NCBI GenBank assembly: GCA_026988975.1
Contig: JALSKH010000224.1
Span: forward strand, 1 to 35,451
Length of the DNA stretch: 35,451 nucleotides
Source of the DNA: Campylobacteraceae bacterium
Lineage (GTDB): Bacteria; Campylobacterota; Campylobacteria; Campylobacterales; Sulfurospirillaceae
Direction: 5' to 3'
Below are positions 1 through 8,282 of the stretch, one piece after another. The notes under the pieces are model-generated. The model was not told the DNA's origin. It saw nothing but the letters and a program-made list of their open reading frames with translations, and did not search any database. How positions within the stretch are numbered: position 1 is the stretch's first letter; the number at the start of each line of letters is the position of its first letter. Position numbers and translations under genes: made by a program.

Positions 1-861
1 TATATCTCCTATAAACGAGATGATTTCATCCAGAGAGCTTTTAAAATGCTCTATTTTTGGATAGATTAACTCTCCCTTTGAGTAGAGTTTTGCTACCTCT
101 TTATCGTTTTTTATCTTTGTGATTATCGGTATATCCTCGTTTTTGCAATAAATCTCAACACTATCATCTCCTATGCCATATCTGTTTATGATGACTCCAA
201 ACTTTTGCTTCAAAACTCTCATAGTTTCGACTGCGAGTTTTAGGTCATTTAGTCCAAAAGGGGTGGCTTCTGTGATGAGTATAGCAAAGTCACTTTCACG
301 ACTAGCCTCTATGACAGGACAACTGGTTCCCGGAGGTGCATCAAAGATTTTTATACAATCTTTAAAATTCTTCTCTACATATTCGATAGTTTGGGATATC
401 ATAGGAACTGCCATCTCTTGCCCCAAATCCAATCTACCCTCTATAAAACTGAAGTTTTGTGCTTGATACTCTTTTATCTCTCCGATTTTTTGAGGATTCA
501 TAGGAAGTGAGTTTGTTGGACATAGTTCGCTACACGCATAGCAACTATGGCAAAGTTCAGGAAAAACCAAGATCTCAGAGGGGAGTGCTACGATAGCATT
601 AAAATTGCATACTTTTGCACACTCTCCACAGAGTATGCACTCCTCACTTTCCCACTTTGGCACCATTTTGTTACAAATCTGCTCATTTTTAAGAGACGAC
701 TTTATAAATAGTGCTGAGTTTGGCTCCTCTACATCCAAGTCACAAAGCACAACTTCTTGAGCTTTGCTGGCAAGATATGATGTAAGATTTGTGGAAATGG
801 TGGTTTTTCCTGTTCCACCTTTTCCACTTGCGATTGTGATTTTTAGATTATCTATTTGCAT
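1..861 (-). CDS. MinD-family P-loop ATPase with inserted 2x[4Fe-4S] ferredoxin domain (partial, runs off window)
   Basis: The minus frame is open from ATG 861 to the window edge (287 codons, no stop). It starts with a deviant Walker A, SGKGGTGKTT, at about residues 10-19, followed by the MinD/ParA-type DLDVEEPN. A ferredoxin insert at about residues 70-110 shows two clusters of Cys-x2-Cys-x2-Cys-x3-Cys (ECILCGECAKVC and LCHSCYACSELC). DAPPGTSCPV and ITEATPFGLND follow. This is the Fe-S MinD superfamily ATPase (COG1149 type), a soluble ATPase often found in pairs beside DUF134 and dinitrogenase-cofactor-type proteins. Its substrate is unknown; Fe-S or metal cofactor handling is the usual guess. 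Its start overlaps the end of the Gly-rich gene by 14 bases, so the two are probably translationally coupled. The C-terminus is not visible. Confidence 0.9.
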   Translation of the reverse strand, partial: MQIDNLKITIASGKGGTGKTTISTNLTSYLASKAQEVVLCDLDVEEPNSALFIKSSLKNEQICNKMVPKWESEECILCGECAKVCNFNAIVALPSEILVFPELCHSCYACSELCPTNSLPMNPQKIGEIKEYQAQNFSFIEGRLDLGQEMAVPMISQTIEYVEKNFKDCIKIFDAPPGTSCPVIEASRESDFAILITEATPFGLNDLKLAVETMRVLKQKFGVIINRYGIGDDSVEIYCKNEDIPIITKIKNDKEVAKLYSKGELIYPKIEHFKSSLDEIISFIGDI

Positions 862-1058: not shown

Positions 1059-1496
1059 TTATTTTTGGATAAACTTTTTACACCCTTTTTGTGGGGTGCC
1101 ACTGTTTGTTGTGAACTCTTTGTCTCCATCTAAAAAGAGTTGGTATCTTTTACACTCATTTCTCTTAACGCATTTGTCATTATTGCACGCTACTACTTTT
1201 TCACTCATTTGTCTCTCCTGTACTTCTAAAATTTTATGATTCAAAATGGCATCAGCTATCTTTTTTCTAGCTGATTCTATGAGTCTTGAGAAAGTAGGAC
1301 GAGAGATATTCATTTTGTCTGCACACTCTTGTTGATATAAAGATTTCAAATCAGAGAGCCTTATCGCCTCCATCTCATCTTCATATATGGCAACAGTTTC
1401 TAGCAAGTCTCCTCTAATCCCACAAGGTTTAAAGCAAATCTCACTATGATCAGCATTGATATTTCTATTTTTTCGTCTTCTTCCGCAAGGATTCAT
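1059..1496 (-). CDS. DUF134-family HTH DNA-binding protein with Cys-rich tail
   Basis: 145 residues from ATG 1496. The N-terminus, MNPCGRRRKNRN, and the following segment with CFKPCGI are typical of DUF134. A sigma70 region 4-like helix-turn-helix (EDEMEAIRLSDLKSLYQQECADKMNISRPTFSRLI) occupies about residues 40-75. The tail beyond residue 95 carries four more Cys (CNNDKCVKRNEC, then GCKKF), which could bind a metal or Fe-S cluster. An in-frame ATG at 1553 would add 19 residues but lies in the promoter, so 1496 is preferred. It is first in the minus-strand operon with the Gly-rich and MinD-like genes. The promoter lies within a large inverted repeat (1505-1549), suggesting autoregulation. The family is clear; ligand and targets are not known. 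Confidence 0.85.
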   Translation of the reverse strand: MNPCGRRRKNRNINADHSEICFKPCGIRGDLLETVAIYEDEMEAIRLSDLKSLYQQECADKMNISRPTFSRLIESARKKIADAILNHKILEVQERQMSEKVVACNNDKCVKRNECKRYQLFLDGDKEFTTNSGTPQKGCKKFIQK

Positions 1497-1504
1497 TTCA
1501 TAGC

Positions 1505-1553
1505 CTTTTGAACATATGTGCGAAATTATATCGAACATATGTTCAAAAGTCAA
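1505..1553 (-). promoter_or_regulatory. promoter embedded in a 45-bp inverted-repeat operator (DUF134 operon)
   Basis: On the minus strand, TTGACT (1553-1548) and TATAAT (1530-1525) are separated by exactly 17 bases. Two 19-base arms, CTTTTGAACATATGTTCGA (minus, 1549-1531) and CTTTTGAACATATGTGCGA (plus, 1505-1523), match at 18 of 19 bases. They flank the seven bases that contain the -10 box. Each arm is itself a dyad centred on GAACATATGTTC. A dimeric repressor bound here would block polymerase; the first gene's own HTH product is the obvious candidate, by inference. Confidence 0.75.
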
Positions 1554-2127: not shown

Positions 2128-3186
2128 GTGAATTTAATGGCTATAGACCTTTTTTGCGGCGCAGGCGGTTTAACACAGGGTTTGCATGATGCTGATTTTA
2201 AAACATTATTAGCTATAGATATTGAACCAGTAGCAATAGAAACTTTTAAAATGAACCATGCTAAAAAAGTTCCTCATATCCTTAAACAAGATATTAAAGA
2301 TTTAACTGCTGAAACGATATTTAAACTAACTGGTTTAAAAAAAGGTGAGCTTGATCTTTTAGCTGGTTGTCCTCCTTGCCAAGGGTTTTCTTCAATGCGT
2401 ACCAAAAACGGTAAAGTAAAAATTGATGACTCTCGTAATGATTTAGTATTTCAATATATGCGCTTAGTAAGAGAACTTTTACCAAAAGCCGTGATGATGG
2501 AAAATGTACCCGGTCTTGCAAAAGATGATCGAATGAAAAAAGTTTTAAATGAGTTAAAAGAACTTGGATACCATGTAGATGATGATACGGTTCAAGTAGT
2601 TAATTTAGCAGATTACGGTGTTCCTCAACGCAGAAGGAGAATGGCATTAGCAACGGTTAAAGAAAGACCGTTTACTCTTAAAAAACCAAACATGAAAAAG
2701 AAAACCGTAAAAGATACTATAGGAGGAAAAAATACACTACCTCCCGTAGGAACCAGCGGTGATATACTTCATGATTGGAAAACAAGAAGAACACAAAAAA
2801 TGCTAGACTATTTTAAAGTTTTACCAAAAGACGGGGGAAGCCGAAGCGATACACCAAGAGAGTATTGGAGACCTTGTCATCTTAAGTACCCTCAAGGCTT
2901 TAAAGATGTTTACGGACGAATGAAGTGGGATGATGTAGCACCTACAATTACAGGTGGATGCGACAACCCTTCTAAAGGGCGTTTCATTCATCCTGAAGAA
3001 AATCGAGCTATCACCCTCAGAGAAGCAGCTCTGCTTCAAACATTTCCTAAAGACTATAAATTTGCTACTTCAAAAGGAAAAACGGGTGTTGCACTTATGA
3101 TAGGTAATGCTTTGCCTCCGAAGTTCATCAAATATATTTCTTCGCAGTTAAAAGAAACCCTATTATCTACTGATAAGAGCGTCTAA
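2128..3186 (+). CDS. dcm: DNA (cytosine-5-)-methyltransferase
   Basis: 352 residues with the ordered C5-methyltransferase motifs. Motif I is DLFCGAGG (about residues 7-14); motif IV is GCPPCQGFS with the catalytic Cys (about 80-88); motif VI is MENVPG; motif VIII is PQRRRRM. A variable target-recognition stretch of about 100 residues follows, and motif X ends with GNALPP. It transfers methyl from S-adenosylmethionine to C5 of cytosine; the target site cannot be read from sequence. The GTG at 2128 has AAAGGG at a good distance and is preferred over ATG 2137. The stop lies inside the 3' end of the convergent receiver gene (20-bp overlap), and a Vsr-type gene lies nearby. This fits a solitary or restriction-linked methyltransferase of a defence island. 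The symbol is family-level. Confidence 0.95.
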   Translation: MNLMAIDLFCGAGGLTQGLHDADFKTLLAIDIEPVAIETFKMNHAKKVPHILKQDIKDLTAETIFKLTGLKKGELDLLAGCPPCQGFSSMRTKNGKVKIDDSRNDLVFQYMRLVRELLPKAVMMENVPGLAKDDRMKKVLNELKELGYHVDDDTVQVVNLADYGVPQRRRRMALATVKERPFTLKKPNMKKKTVKDTIGGKNTLPPVGTSGDILHDWKTRRTQKMLDYFKVLPKDGGSRSDTPREYWRPCHLKYPQGFKDVYGRMKWDDVAPTITGGCDNPSKGRFIHPEENRAITLREAALLQTFPKDYKFATSKGKTGVALMIGNALPPKFIKYISSQLKETLLSTDKSV

Positions 3187-4933
3187 GATATTCAGATTCA
3201 TTAAAACCAACTCTTGACAATTGTGCGGCAAATTTATTTAAGATTGCTTGTGCTTTATCTCTTTTAAGATTTGAAATCCATATATATTTATTATCTTTAT
3301 CATCAAAAAAATACCAAAAATCACCTTCTTTTTTAGCTAAAAGAGGTTCCGTATCAAACCCATCTTTTTTCTTGAGTATGATAACGGCAAGATTTTCAGT
3401 TTTATAATCTATAGCAAATTTTCTATATTTATTATCTTGTATAATTAACTCAAATTTTTTATTTGTTGCTGTCTCTTCTCTTAATGTTAACGGTAAAATT
3501 ATAAAGGGTGCTGTTCCACATTTTATTCTAGCAGCATCACATCTTGGAACAATACAAATAAAATACGAATCAGTATACTGTTTTTTTATAACTGTTCCTA
3601 AGGTCATAATTGGTTCAGGAGAATCATATTGTTTTTTTATTGTGGATAATATAGAAAGTTCTTTTTCAAGCTTTTCAGCTTTATTGTTATCTGAAAACAA
3701 ATATTTTGTTAAATCTTTTATTGGTTTTTTCTTTTTTGCTTCAAGAAGTCTACAATTGATAGCTGGATCACATTCTTTCTTATCATTAAGGTTACAGTAC
3801 CCATTTTCAAAAATATTTTGTAAAAGTTCTAATAATTTTTCTTTATTTTCTATGATTTTATTTTTCCCATCATCGGTACCTATATCACATGATGCATCCA
3901 AATCAAAAGTATTAATAATTCTATTATTATCATCATTATTATTAAACTGATAATTTTCATCAAGAAAAAATCTTTTATATCTTTCATCACTAAAATATTT
4001 ATTAAACCATTTCATAATCTGATCAATATTTAATGCAGTATTTACTTGCGTGTTATCTTCTAATATTGATTGTATTTCTGAAATAAAAATATCTAGCATG
4101 AAATTTTCAGCATCTTTGGGGTGGGGAAGTAGCATTCTATGTGATAAGTACGCTTCATCTAGCTCTTTGGAAAACACTCCAAGAATTTTATGAGTATTTT
4201 TTCTAAGCTCAGCTAATGACTGTAATGCCATATTTGGAATTAAACCTGCTACTTGACTTGTAAAGTCGTTTATTATAGATTCAACAAGCCCTTTTTCGTC
4301 TTTTAAGACATCTTCATCTTTAGGATATCTTTGAGTGGCTTCTTTTGCATAAATTTTAATTTGAAGATTATCATAAATTAAAGAATAAACATCTGGCATT
4401 TCTGGCTCTCCGAGTTCATTATCTAAATAATTTTTTACTAATTTTATTTTGTCCTTTAAGTTATTTTCTCCTGAATAAATTACAATATTGCGTAATGATT
4501 TTTGAGTATTGCCATTGGTATCTTGTATTATTGACTTTATGAGAGCTTTTGCTGTTTCTCCATCAGTTTCTACAGATTTTAACTTCCAATCTAAAATAAC
4601 AATATCTGCTTTTTTTAAAATATCTTTATATACTTGTATCTCATTGCCAGTTGGTCTAAGTGTTGTGCATAAAAGACCTTTTTGGGCAAATCCATCTGAA
4701 AGTTTTTTTGCATTAAGTTGATGTAGTTTATTATCTTCTACGGAAGTCTGCTTTTTTCTTGCCCTGGTAGTGCCTCTTCCTATTGCAGCTGGCAATTCAG
4801 TTGAGGTAGAAATTTGAGTAGGAGATTGACAATCCTCATTAAAAAATGCTTCGTCATCCACAATCACAACCGTTTGAAGAAAATTAGTAATCACACCTTT
4901 TGAATATTCTATAAACTCACTCATTTTCTTCAT
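3167..4933 (-). CDS. receiver-domain (response-regulator-like) protein with uncharacterised C-terminal region
   Basis: 588 residues. The N-terminal ~200 look like a receiver domain enlarged by inserts. The acidic pair is VVIVDDE (D26, D27), the phosphoacceptor is ILDWKLK (D115), the hydroxyl position is IVIYSGE (S154) and the Lys is KIYAKEA (about K197). Residues 29-75 form a long Thr/Ser/Lys-rich insertion between the first strand and helix. The ~390-residue remainder matches nothing I recognise. It holds a Cys cluster (CNLNDKKECDPAINC) and a later segment, ICIVPRCDAARIKC, and no evident HTH. The gene starts within the end of the large ATPase gene: ATG 4933, or ATG 4924 overlapping the stop by eight bases. 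The two are therefore coupled. I infer that the receiver takes phosphate from the kinase-like C-terminus of its neighbour and that the C-terminal part is the effector. Its own end overlaps the methyltransferase gene by 20 bp. Confidence 0.8.
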   Translation of the reverse strand: MKKMSEFIEYSKGVITNFLQTVVIVDDEAFFNEDCQSPTQISTSTELPAAIGRGTTRARKKQTSVEDNKLHQLNAKKLSDGFAQKGLLCTTLRPTGNEIQVYKDILKKADIVILDWKLKSVETDGETAKALIKSIIQDTNGNTQKSLRNIVIYSGENNLKDKIKLVKNYLDNELGEPEMPDVYSLIYDNLQIKIYAKEATQRYPKDEDVLKDEKGLVESIINDFTSQVAGLIPNMALQSLAELRKNTHKILGVFSKELDEAYLSHRMLLPHPKDAENFMLDIFISEIQSILEDNTQVNTALNIDQIMKWFNKYFSDERYKRFFLDENYQFNNNDDNNRIINTFDLDASCDIGTDDGKNKIIENKEKLLELLQNIFENGYCNLNDKKECDPAINCRLLEAKKKKPIKDLTKYLFSDNNKAEKLEKELSILSTIKKQYDSPEPIMTLGTVIKKQYTDSYFICIVPRCDAARIKCGTAPFIILPLTLREETATNKKFELIIQDNKYRKFAIDYKTENLAVIILKKKDGFDTEPLLAKKEGDFWYFFDDKDNKYIWISNLKRDKAQAILNKFAAQLSRVGFNESEYLRRSYQ

Positions 4934-7900
4934 CTTTTTTCAAAATTTCAAATGTAGTACCCTTGTCTGTATCTAATAACTTTATATCATATCCTAATTC
5001 ATTCAAAGATTGTTTTGCAATATAAAGTCCCATTCCTCTACCTCCCGGTTTACTACTGAAACCAAAGTCAAAAATCACTTCTCGCATCTCTTTTCTAATA
5101 CCAGGACCGTTATCTGATACAATAAAATGATCATCTAATGTATCAAAAGTAATTGTTTTGTCTTTTATCAAAGAACCTTTTAACCAATATATTGAGTTAT
5201 CAACAAGATTGATAAAAACCGGATAAAAAGTTGATGGATATCCTTTTTCTAAATGTTTTCTAAAACTATCCGTCACATTAAATGTAATGTCATGTCGTTC
5301 AAACCTTATTTTAAAAAGATTTTCTATAAAATCGGATATTTCATATCCTTTGATATTTATCTCTTTGCGATAGAGTCTTCTATTGAGAGGAGTAAATAGA
5401 GACAGATAACCGTCAATGTGTTCAAATCCACTTCTGACATCATTATAAATACTTGCAATATTTTCATTAACATCTGCCCATGCTTTTAATCGTCTAAGAT
5501 TTCTTCTAACTGTACGGATGCTACTATCAAATTCATGATTAATGATGTTGATCGCTATACCTACTTGAGCGAGCTCCATATCTAACTTATGCTGTTCTTG
5601 AACTTCACTTAATATTCTCTCATTAGCCTCTTGGACATCAAGATTACTGACGATATTTCCTTCGTCGTCGAATTCCCAGTCAACTCCTTCAAGTAATGTA
5701 CTAATCGTTTCAAGCGTTTTTTTCTCCCTTTGAGATACTTTTTCTATAATTTCTTCGTACTCAAGTCTTTTAGCTGCTATTTCATCTTCACTCATACCCG
5801 AAAAATCTGTTTTATTAAAATCGTCTGCAACGGTTCTTATAGTCTCCTCAATTGTTTTAATACTGTGCTTTGTCGCTTCTTCAACCTCATTTTTCACTTC
5901 TTCTTTTTTTTCAGTAACTGTTTTCTTCTCATTATTGATCTCTTTTTTTGTCTCTTTATATATCTCATCTAGTGACTGCTCTATCCTTTTTCTTCTATCT
6001 ATCTCTAACTGTGCAGTTTCAATTGCTTGAGAAATGATTGAACTTATCTCTTGTCTTTTAGGATTAAATACCGTTTCTATCGCATTGTCTTTTTCAGACT
6101 TGTATGTCATCCAAAGATCATTATCTTTTTTCGTTTTGATAGTTACACCGGTTGGACGAGAAATGATATATGATTGTTCAATCTCTTTAAACTTTTCCAA
6201 ATACCTCTTTTCAATTGCAATAATTTCATAAGCAAGTTTTTCATTATCGCTAAACGAAAGTTTATTATCTATCTCACCGTGAAGATGCTTAATAAGATTA
6301 TCTGCCTCATCAATATGTTTTAGAGCCTGCATATTCGATAAAGCTCTTTTAAATTTAGCTAAAAAGTTTTTTAGTTTTTCACTTTTTTTCTTTTCTTGTT
6401 GTTTCCTTCTGTGATTTGCTTTTAAATGTTCTTCCTTTTCTTTTAAATACAGATCAGCATAGATACCGTCTTCATAGGTAAAATCCTGAGAGAGTCTTTT
6501 TAAAAAGTTTTTCAATATCTTTTTAAATTGTTGATATGCTTTATTTTCTTGGAAGCCTTCCCGACCGGCTTTTTCTTTAAGATTTTTATTACTTTTGTGA
6601 TTTATCTCAATTGCACCAAACATTCTACGATAACTAAAATAACTTCTTAAATTTAAGGTTCTTTCTTTTTCAATTTCTAAAAAATCAAAGTCAATATCTC
6701 CATATGGTAAAACACGAATACCGTTTTTATAGATATAGAGCCCTCCTATTTGAAAACATTTAGCTTTTAAAATTTTATAATTTTCTAATGGCATAGATGT
6801 TTCCGATGCTTGTCCTTGAATTGCAGCAAAATTTAAAGAAAAAGAACCACATTCAATTTTTTTTCCTTTTGCATCTTTCCATGGCAAATGGTACTCGAGA
6901 GGTTCTTGTCCATACATTGTAATTTTTCCATGAAAAGTTCCATATTCATCAAAAATACCCTCAAACCTATGGTCAGCATTTAAAAAATCTTTTGGAGTGA
7001 AAAAAGAATCTTGTTTTATAATATCTATAGAAAGGTCATCTGAACGATTATGCCATTTAAAAGATGCTTTGATTTTAGGCGGTTTATGATTCAGTGTCAT
7101 AGTATTTGTAAAACCGAGTAAATGCTTACGAAGTTTCGAATTTCCCTCAGATTCATTTCCTAAATCTTCTTTGATAATAGGATCAGAAGGTAAAATATAA
7201 AAGTGTGTTCCGCTCGAAACTCGTAAGTCAGGTTCTTTCAAAAACTCTGCTTCTTTTAGAGGATCAATAGTAAATTGCTCTAACTCATTGGAAATAGCAT
7301 GAAATAAATCTTCCGGTACTTTATCTGATAATTGGTGCAAGTTATCTTTAACTTCTTGTATCATGTCGGAAACATCACCAGCACCAGGGAGAGTGCCAGA
7401 TGAAAAAGTTTTAATCGGAATAGTAATCTCATCGATATTTACACCGGGTATTTCAAACATTTTCCAATTAATAAATGCTGCCACTAAATCATGATAACTT
7501 TCTTTATTATCAACAAAGCGTTTTGCTCTTGTCAAAATTAAAACTTGGGGTCCGATAATAGATATTGCAAGTCTTCCGATTCCTTTTTCTCCCATAGACG
7601 GACGCTCTTCTTTTGTTGGATCCTTAGGAGGCGGTATCAAAGACTTTGATACATCTACTTTACTATCTGTTCCAAGTGTAAGCCAGCGATTAATGAAATC
7701 ATCTAAAGTCATTCCTAGACCGTCATCACGCAATACAAAAAGCCCATCAGAAACATAATAATCTACCAATACGTCATCAGCATACGCATCATGTGCATTT
7801 TTAAATAATTCATTAATTGCAGTAGGAATACCGGCTATCTGCTGCCGTCCAAGCATATCTACCGTCCTAGCTCTCGTTTTAAAACTTACTGCCTTGTTTT

Positions 7901-8282
7901 TACTACGCAAGCCACCTTTTAGACATATATTTTCAATAACCTCTTTTGTTGTATATCTTACCGCATTTTGTGCATTGTATTGTTCTTTATTTTCATGCAG
8001 AGCTCCATTTGCATCTTTTAACGGGACTTCATTTTTAAACGGTTGATAATCAATCACTTTGGCGTAGAAGTGATCTTGAACTTTTTTATCATCAAAAATG
8101 CTATCTATTTTACCATAACCGAAATATACACCTTTTCCTTTTTTAGACTGTTCATAATAAACGAACTCTGAACCTGATTGAATGTAATTTTTGAGCTTTT
8201 TAGAAAAATGATATAAAATCCCAATAAAGTTATTGTAGTTTGAGTTATCTCTATATTGAGATAAAATTAAATATTTTTTCAT
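4917..8282 (-). CDS. large dual GHKL ATPase: EVE/PUA-like + MutL/MORC-type GHKL + coiled coil + histidine-kinase-like C-terminus
   Basis: 1121 residues, ATG 8282. Residues 1-120 show a pattern (FVYY, VYFGYGKI, HFYAKVIDYQPF, then AVRYTT) resembling the EVE/PUA-like module at the N-terminus of some HNH endonucleases; it may read modified bases (inference). Residues 140-260 hold a GHKL ATPase: N-box ELFKNAHDAYADD (E158, N162, D165), DDGLGM (186-191) and GEKGIGRLAI (231-240), the MutL/Hsp90/MORC style. Residues about 600-900 are charged and heptad-like, probably coiled coil. The C-terminus has an H-box-like IINHEF (H916), an N-box LVDNS (about 1028), DNGPGI (1057-1062) and GRGMGLYIA (1081-1089), a histidine-kinase HATPase. 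No membrane segments are seen. The ATG overlaps the Vsr stop (ATGA) and the 3' end overlaps the receiver gene. Bacterial MutL/MORC-like ATPases beside methylases and Vsr-like nucleases are known from genome analyses; this two-ATPase form is the striking part. Confidence 0.85.
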   Translation of the reverse strand: MKKYLILSQYRDNSNYNNFIGILYHFSKKLKNYIQSGSEFVYYEQSKKGKGVYFGYGKIDSIFDDKKVQDHFYAKVIDYQPFKNEVPLKDANGALHENKEQYNAQNAVRYTTKEVIENICLKGGLRSKNKAVSFKTRARTVDMLGRQQIAGIPTAINELFKNAHDAYADDVLVDYYVSDGLFVLRDDGLGMTLDDFINRWLTLGTDSKVDVSKSLIPPPKDPTKEERPSMGEKGIGRLAISIIGPQVLILTRAKRFVDNKESYHDLVAAFINWKMFEIPGVNIDEITIPIKTFSSGTLPGAGDVSDMIQEVKDNLHQLSDKVPEDLFHAISNELEQFTIDPLKEAEFLKEPDLRVSSGTHFYILPSDPIIKEDLGNESEGNSKLRKHLLGFTNTMTLNHKPPKIKASFKWHNRSDDLSIDIIKQDSFFTPKDFLNADHRFEGIFDEYGTFHGKITMYGQEPLEYHLPWKDAKGKKIECGSFSLNFAAIQGQASETSMPLENYKILKAKCFQIGGLYIYKNGIRVLPYGDIDFDFLEIEKERTLNLRSYFSYRRMFGAIEINHKSNKNLKEKAGREGFQENKAYQQFKKILKNFLKRLSQDFTYEDGIYADLYLKEKEEHLKANHRRKQQEKKKSEKLKNFLAKFKRALSNMQALKHIDEADNLIKHLHGEIDNKLSFSDNEKLAYEIIAIEKRYLEKFKEIEQSYIISRPTGVTIKTKKDNDLWMTYKSEKDNAIETVFNPKRQEISSIISQAIETAQLEIDRRKRIEQSLDEIYKETKKEINNEKKTVTEKKEEVKNEVEEATKHSIKTIEETIRTVADDFNKTDFSGMSEDEIAAKRLEYEEIIEKVSQREKKTLETISTLLEGVDWEFDDEGNIVSNLDVQEANERILSEVQEQHKLDMELAQVGIAINIINHEFDSSIRTVRRNLRRLKAWADVNENIASIYNDVRSGFEHIDGYLSLFTPLNRRLYRKEINIKGYEISDFIENLFKIRFERHDITFNVTDSFRKHLEKGYPSTFYPVFINLVDNSIYWLKGSLIKDKTITFDTLDDHFIVSDNGPGIRKEMREVIFDFGFSSKPGGRGMGLYIAKQSLNELGYDIKLLDTDKGTTFEILKKDEENE

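Follow-up and report, generated by a model that had tools for sequence, protein, structure and literature searches.

A conserved CATATG-centered dyad on the core promoter of DUF134 genes, the predicted operator of an uncharacterized regulator family

DeoR of Bacillus subtilis is the only solved relative of the DUF134 helix-turn-helix (PDB 7bhy, 8r7y). Its published dra-nupC-pdp operator is ATTGAACAAAATTTCAATTACCAATTTACATATGTTCAA, and residues R34 and R39 touch operator bases (PMC11229326). A second described system, the LexA/DinR SOS box of Gram-positive bacteria, has the consensus GAAC-N4-GTTC, and the boxes listed for S. aureus include CGAACATATGTTCT (PMC11442139). The MrpORP/ORP cluster of Desulfovibrio resembles the operon analyzed here in that Fe-S ATPases and Nitro_FeMo-Co domains stand in one cluster, a likeness of cluster content; MrpORP is described as an Fe-S carrier with ORP-complex targets (PMC6345978). 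DUF134 (UPF0251, COG1342; PF02001) is a family of its own, labeled "function unknown," whose proteins occur in many anaerobes and archaea and on enterobacterial plasmids. Our search of the literature on DUF134, UPF0251, and COG1342 and on the dyad sequences, with subscription journals and regulon databases outside its scope, found no DUF134 operator, regulon, or signal.

Here we describe the promoter of a DUF134 gene in a 35,451-nucleotide contig of a Campylobacteraceae bacterium (the window). As in other members of the family, the neighbors of the gene are NifX-like proteins and Mrp-type ATPases. We consider its dyads a real and conserved predicted operator of an uncharacterized regulator family, of which a prior description is possible.

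Promoter, inverted repeat, and DUF134 gene in the window

The features of the locus are as follows.

1..861, minus strand: iron-sulfur P-loop ATPase (Mrp/MinD-like), cut by the contig end
848..1048, minus strand: small Gly/Asn/Arg-rich protein of the same operon, no family match
1059..1496, minus strand: DUF134 regulator gene, 145 aa, ATG at 1496; PF02001 at 67.7 bits against a cut-off of 27
1062..1208, minus strand: Cys-rich module (MSEKVVACNNDKCVKRNECKRY...GCKKFI), fused in frame to DUF134
1242..1382, minus strand: DUF134 helix-turn-helix, helices 39-48, 55-61, and 66-85; AlphaFold pLDDT about 80-90 here
1504..1509, minus strand: probable ribosome-binding site AAAAGG, abutting dyad 2; AAAAGG/AGGA in relatives
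1505-1523: left arm of the inverted repeat, CTTTTGAACATATGTGCGA, 19 bases
1508..1523, minus strand: dyad 2, GAACATATGTGC at 1510-1521, CATATG at 1513-1518; just past the -10 box, over the expected transcription start
1525..1530, minus strand: -10 box TATAAT, at the center of the 45-bp inverted repeat; retained in relatives
1531-1549: right arm of the inverted repeat, TCGAACATATGTTCAAAAG, 19 bases
1531..1546, minus strand: dyad 1, core GAACATATGTTC perfect at 1533-1544, CATATG at 1536-1541; within the 17-bp -35/-10 spacer
1548..1553, minus strand: -35 box TTGACT of the DUF134 promoter; TTGAC-type -35 retained in relatives

The first-pass annotation had described a 45-bp inverted repeat centered on the -10 box of a TTGACT-17-TATAAT promoter, each arm being built on a dyad. 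On the minus strand, 1553 to 1490 reads TTGACTTTTGAACATATGTTCGATATAATTTCGCACATATGTTCAAAAGGCTATGAAATGAATC. The promoter is as described, with TTGACT at 1553-1548, a spacer of 17 bases, and TATAAT at 1530-1525, inside the seven central bases (1524-1530) of the repeat; it matches the consensus at 11 of 12 positions. The arms do pair at 18/19 (1505-1523 with 1531-1549), and at 91% when all 22 bases per arm are allowed. Because 1 of 200 dinucleotide shuffles of the window reached an 18/19 inverted repeat (any gap of 0-11; mean of the best per shuffle, 14.7), the repeat by itself is only moderately unlikely, and its significance comes from conservation. Both arms contain a dyad, that of dyad 2 being imperfect (GAACATATGTGC). 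Since each arm is built on a palindromic dyad, two dyads with centers 23 bp apart automatically form a long repeat.

We placed the start of the DUF134 gene at ATG 1496 by alignment with relatives and by the ribosome-binding site; TTG 1553, the start of the mechanical open reading frame, lies within the -35 box and was rejected on the same two grounds. With this start, the promoter stands upstream of the gene and not inside it. In the genome-wide profile search the protein scored 68.3 bits to PF02001. Sigma70 region 4 scored below its cut-off (19.8 versus 25.7 bits), and Pfam gave no region 2, so the protein does not qualify as a sigma-70 factor. Residues 1-95 are DUF134, and residues 97-145 form a Cys-rich module. 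Relatives encode this module as a gene of its own, with a stop codon TAA at the place that reads CAA here (within 1197-1220); the 145-aa protein is thus a natural fusion, a clue that the two proteins may act together. The stand-alone form of the Cys-rich protein had no Pfam or NCBIfam match; five small Cys proteins were left out of an alignment in which they were misplaced. Elsewhere in the family, DUF134 is found fused to Nitro_FeMo-Co (PF02579) or zinc-ribbon domains. The genome also has a second DUF134 gene (L037, G000:C62:3161-3403), 68% identical and followed by a small, probably exported protein; it is cut at a contig end, and its upstream region falls outside the assembled sequence.

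The operon is broken by contig ends, and its order is likely DUF134, Cys-rich protein, Gly-rich protein, Fe-S P-loop ATPases, and NifX-like protein. It probably continues past the end of this contig with a second ATPase and the NifX-like protein, which we saw on contig C218. The ortholog of the P-loop ATPase has CbiA, Fer4, and NUBPL-like Pfam domains. On the other side, we weighed whether the divergent STAS gene (1613-1978) might be a target; in relatives that keep the dyads it does not stand beside DUF134, and it is probably a bystander. A perfect 16-base inverted repeat directly after this SpoIIAA-like gene (1963-1995) is probably its terminator. Farther along the window (2128-8282), a C5 DNA methyltransferase lies beside a convergent gene pair with HEF_HK/HATPase and Response_reg_2 domains, a layout resembling a conflict or defense island; the pair had no PADLOC match.

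The helix-turn-helix and its resemblance to DeoR

In the AlphaFold model, residues 39-85 fold as a helix-turn-helix with a strand after it; outside this domain the model is poor (mean pLDDT, 62.3). The recognition helix reads ISRPTFSRL, and its R66 and R71 are invariant in 24 sequences. Searches of solved structures by sequence and by fold gave the same top match, B. subtilis DeoR bound to its operator: hmmsearch with the DUF134 helix-turn-helix found 7bhy at an E value of 6e-5, and the best Foldseek matches were to DeoR (1.3 A, 46% over 39 columns), with a weak structure E value of about 0.1, partly because the domain is small. The DeoR recognition helix, ISRPTVSRL, is nearly identical, and by our reading of the alignment, DeoR R34 and R39 probably correspond to DUF134 R66 and R71. 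For proteins with a residue other than Arg at the position of R71, the flanking G of the half-site shifts from -6 to -5 (G at -6 in 2/30 versus 218/298 half-sites), a correlation confounded with phylogeny.

The DeoR operator also resembles the predicted one of DUF134. It has half-sites of the form TTGAA-N6-TTCAA, contains CATATGTTCAA in its second half-operator, has a center spacing of 22 bp compared to 23 bp here, and likewise sits on the promoter. The likeness covers the helix-turn-helix and the operator. Unlike DeoR, the 145-aa DUF134 protein has no C-terminal sugar-phosphate effector domain (Pfam reports DUF134 and the subthreshold sigma-70 region 4 only); it is paired instead with Cys-rich, Nitro_FeMo-Co, or zinc-ribbon modules, and its predicted targets are metal-cofactor genes. 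DUF134 thus has the helix-turn-helix of the SorC/DeoR family without the effector domain, and falls outside that family.

The dyad across DUF134 genes and genomes

We collected 144 DUF134 matches in all loci, which gave 106 distinct upstream regions and 103 after clean-up. As the first-pass annotation had anticipated, the dyad recurs upstream of DUF134 in relatives, at about 90% of the 103 distinct genes: 92 have CATATG within 300 nt. Within 130 nt upstream, CATATG was present at 86/102 genes (shuffles: mean 6.5, maximum 17) and was the commonest of all 6-mers; two copies occurred in 58 of the 102 regions versus 0.18 in shuffles. The enrichment held with one gene per 80% protein cluster (37/47 versus 2.6 in shuffles) and per 60% cluster (11/16 versus 1.0). 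Among other genes of the same loci, CATATG stood upstream of 65/413, including divergent genes that share the operator. Most of the 11 DUF134 genes without CATATG within 300 nt have a similar dyad with one base changed; among the 103, no recognizable dyad was found upstream of L061, L069, and L139, of which L069 is inside an operon. The CATATG-centered dyad is the most conserved element upstream of DUF134, placed in one or two copies on the core promoter.

The promoter and both dyads are retained in 10 close homologs, while everything further upstream differs, and the pattern TTGACTTTTGAACATATGTTCGATATAATTTCGCACATATGTTCAAAA is common to relatives despite different upstream genes. Two groups of center-to-center distances stand out, 22-23 bp and 30-34 bp, which approximate two and three turns of the helix. 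In 32 Campylobacterota loci with named records, partly from the same genomes as the close homologs, we found three layouts: two dyads flanking the -10 box; a dyad only before it, with weaker -35 boxes (L060-L068); and a dyad only after it (L053, L054, L056). Because relatives with one dyad keep CATATG without the long repeat, we take the predicted operator unit to be the CATATG-centered dyad (TTGAACATATGTTCAA in this group), used twice here. The DUF134 operator proposed in the first pass therefore stands as to the conserved dyad, and the single 45-bp operator gives way to two separate dyads. A strict 35-bp pattern, too stringent to describe the family, occurred in only three places in 298 Campylobacterota genomes, all DUF134 promoters. 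L050 and L051 have an additional dyad pair about 100 nt upstream of DUF134, in a divergent promoter that apparently belongs to the gene for the operon's Gly-rich protein.

The dyad is also present upstream of DUF134 proteins about 35-40% identical in other phyla, whose genes were drawn from plasmid records, and it holds in distant members from Campylobacterota, Bacillota, and Pseudomonadota. DUF134 forms of 148-200 aa from the same bacterial family, about 40% identical, have TTGACATTATGCACATATGTGT and TTGAACATATGTCAA. Exact CATATG dyads were found in Selenomonas, Peptoclostridium, Roseburia, Pusillibacter, Subdoligranulum, an E. coli plasmid, Citrobacter, and Morganella. In Treponema (CAAATG twice) and Salinivibrio one base of the dyad is changed; the dyads of Parabacteroides and Acetoanaerobium are weak or unclear. 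Plasmids of Klebsiella, Citrobacter, and E. coli, some of them conjugative, carry DUF134 (L109, L111, L114, and about 170 further records); in the examples opened, a NifX-like gene adjoins DUF134 and the dyads are of the GCATATGC type. No relative was found among viral contigs or phage records.

A pattern search of the whole genome located one paired site, that at DUF134, and five further near-matches of GAACATATGTTC were rejected as targets, all lying inside coding genes. Within the genus, every paired TTGAACATATG site lies at DUF134, and three genomes without DUF134 (G002, G004, G005) are also without it. Another genome without DUF134 (G043) keeps the Cys-rich gene, with decayed promoter dyads (CATTCG, CAAATG). 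DUF134 is present in 34/249 genomes, and the close Fe-S ATPase occurs only in DUF134-bearing ones, 8/8 (P = 5.5e-8). Dyads also precede Fe-S ATPase operons without an adjacent DUF134 (L093, L094), adjoin a pair of Fe-S ATPase and DUF4405-type genes, again without one (L076), and precede a lone Cys-rich gene (L099/L166). Between DUF134 and divergent NifX-like genes, the divergent promoter TTGACATATG... carries a dyad, and where the gap is long, the dyads lie on the NifX side (L027, L034, L145, L146). DUF134 operons of relatives (L048, L057, L058, and others) also hold genes for ArsP-type permeases, NifU, TrmO, and flavin reductase; the permeases score below the cut-off for PF03773 and match PF11449, a heavy-metal exporter family. 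It is possible that these additional genes hint at the signal.

Predicted control by DUF134 and the alternatives to it

We think it very likely that DUF134 is the protein that binds the dyads. The best overall explanation, in which we have good confidence, is that the dyads at 1508-1523 and 1531-1546 form the operator for the DUF134 protein whose gene follows them directly. The main competitor is an unlinked transcription factor that binds the dyads and controls DUF134 together with the cofactor operon. Bystander regulation of a conserved operon would conserve the site too, dyads precede cofactor genes in trans, and co-conservation beside a gene cannot alone exclude another regulator of the operon. 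Yet the dyad tracks DUF134 across phyla and through very different neighborhoods, including enterobacterial plasmids; genomes without DUF134 lose the site or let it decay; and the DUF134 helix-turn-helix resembles one solved regulator, whose operator is TTGAA-N6-TTCAA. We therefore regard an unlinked factor as improbable. Still less probable, to the point of being very remote, is that the dyads are LexA (SOS) boxes, even though GAACATATGTTC is identical to the Gram-positive consensus and CGAACATATGTTCT is a listed S. aureus box. The LexA domain PF01726 is absent from this genome and exceeded its cut-off in 0/44 genomes of the family, with controls detected; the outer GAAC/GTTC bases are not retained (variants have GCAC, TGAC, or TGGC), CATATG alone being kept; and the genes concerned are not DNA-repair genes. 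Unless a divergent LexA is present, a LexA box is refuted for this genome. As for an RNA structure (attenuator) or a chance palindrome, the shuffle that reached 18/19 leaves some room for chance, but transcription takes in only the part past the -10 box, which rules out the long hairpin in RNA; relatives with one dyad and the CATATG statistics upstream of DUF134 led us to reject both, which we consider scarcely credible.

The direction of control is less certain. DUF134 is probably a repressor. Activation or dual control, with DUF134 bending or remodeling the promoter from its place in the spacer, would suit the dyad between the -35 and -10 boxes, as with MerR-type activators, and the weaker -35 boxes of the class with an upstream dyad only. 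Against it, a promoter so near consensus, with an optimal spacer of 17 bp, would need no remodeling, dyad 2 lies over the start site, and some relatives have the downstream dyad alone (L053, L054, L056); we judge activation unlikely.

Under repression by DUF134, a dimer would bind each dyad through the DeoR-like helix-turn-helix, and two dimers 23 bp (about two helical turns) apart would occupy the -35/-10 spacer and the start site. Since dyad 1 takes up the spacer and dyad 2 lies across the start site, occupancy should block polymerase, and the bound dimers would keep it off this near-consensus promoter. The outcome would be negative autoregulation of the operon DUF134 - Cys-rich - Gly-rich - Fe-S ATPases - NifX-like, which is the simplest reading and fits the position of the dyads on the promoter. 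Cooperative binding would not be universal, some relatives having a single dyad. In the least certain step, metal or Fe-S/Mo-Fe cluster status might release or strengthen the grip of DUF134 on DNA, as the Cys-rich module and the Nitro_FeMo-Co and zinc-ribbon fusions suggest; that metal-cluster status is the signal we put forward tentatively.

The dyads are very probably a switch for self-control of DUF134 and for neighboring iron-sulfur and molybdenum-iron cofactor genes. A broader and more speculative proposal is that DUF134 proteins are widespread metal- or Fe-S-cluster-responsive regulators with one ancestral operator (CATATG dyads with class-specific flanks), a DeoR-type helix-turn-helix, and a modular sensor. 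The sensor would be a NifX-like or zinc-ribbon domain in some DUF134 proteins and a detachable Cys-rich partner, fused here, in others, and the partner would replace the effector domain of DeoR. Given a conserved operator, DUF134 would become a family of regulators whose binding site can be tested, whose predicted regulon comprises Fe-S ATPases, NifX-like proteins, and metal permeases, and for which DeoR serves as the structural template. It may also offer a route to the signal that controls cofactor assembly in anaerobes.
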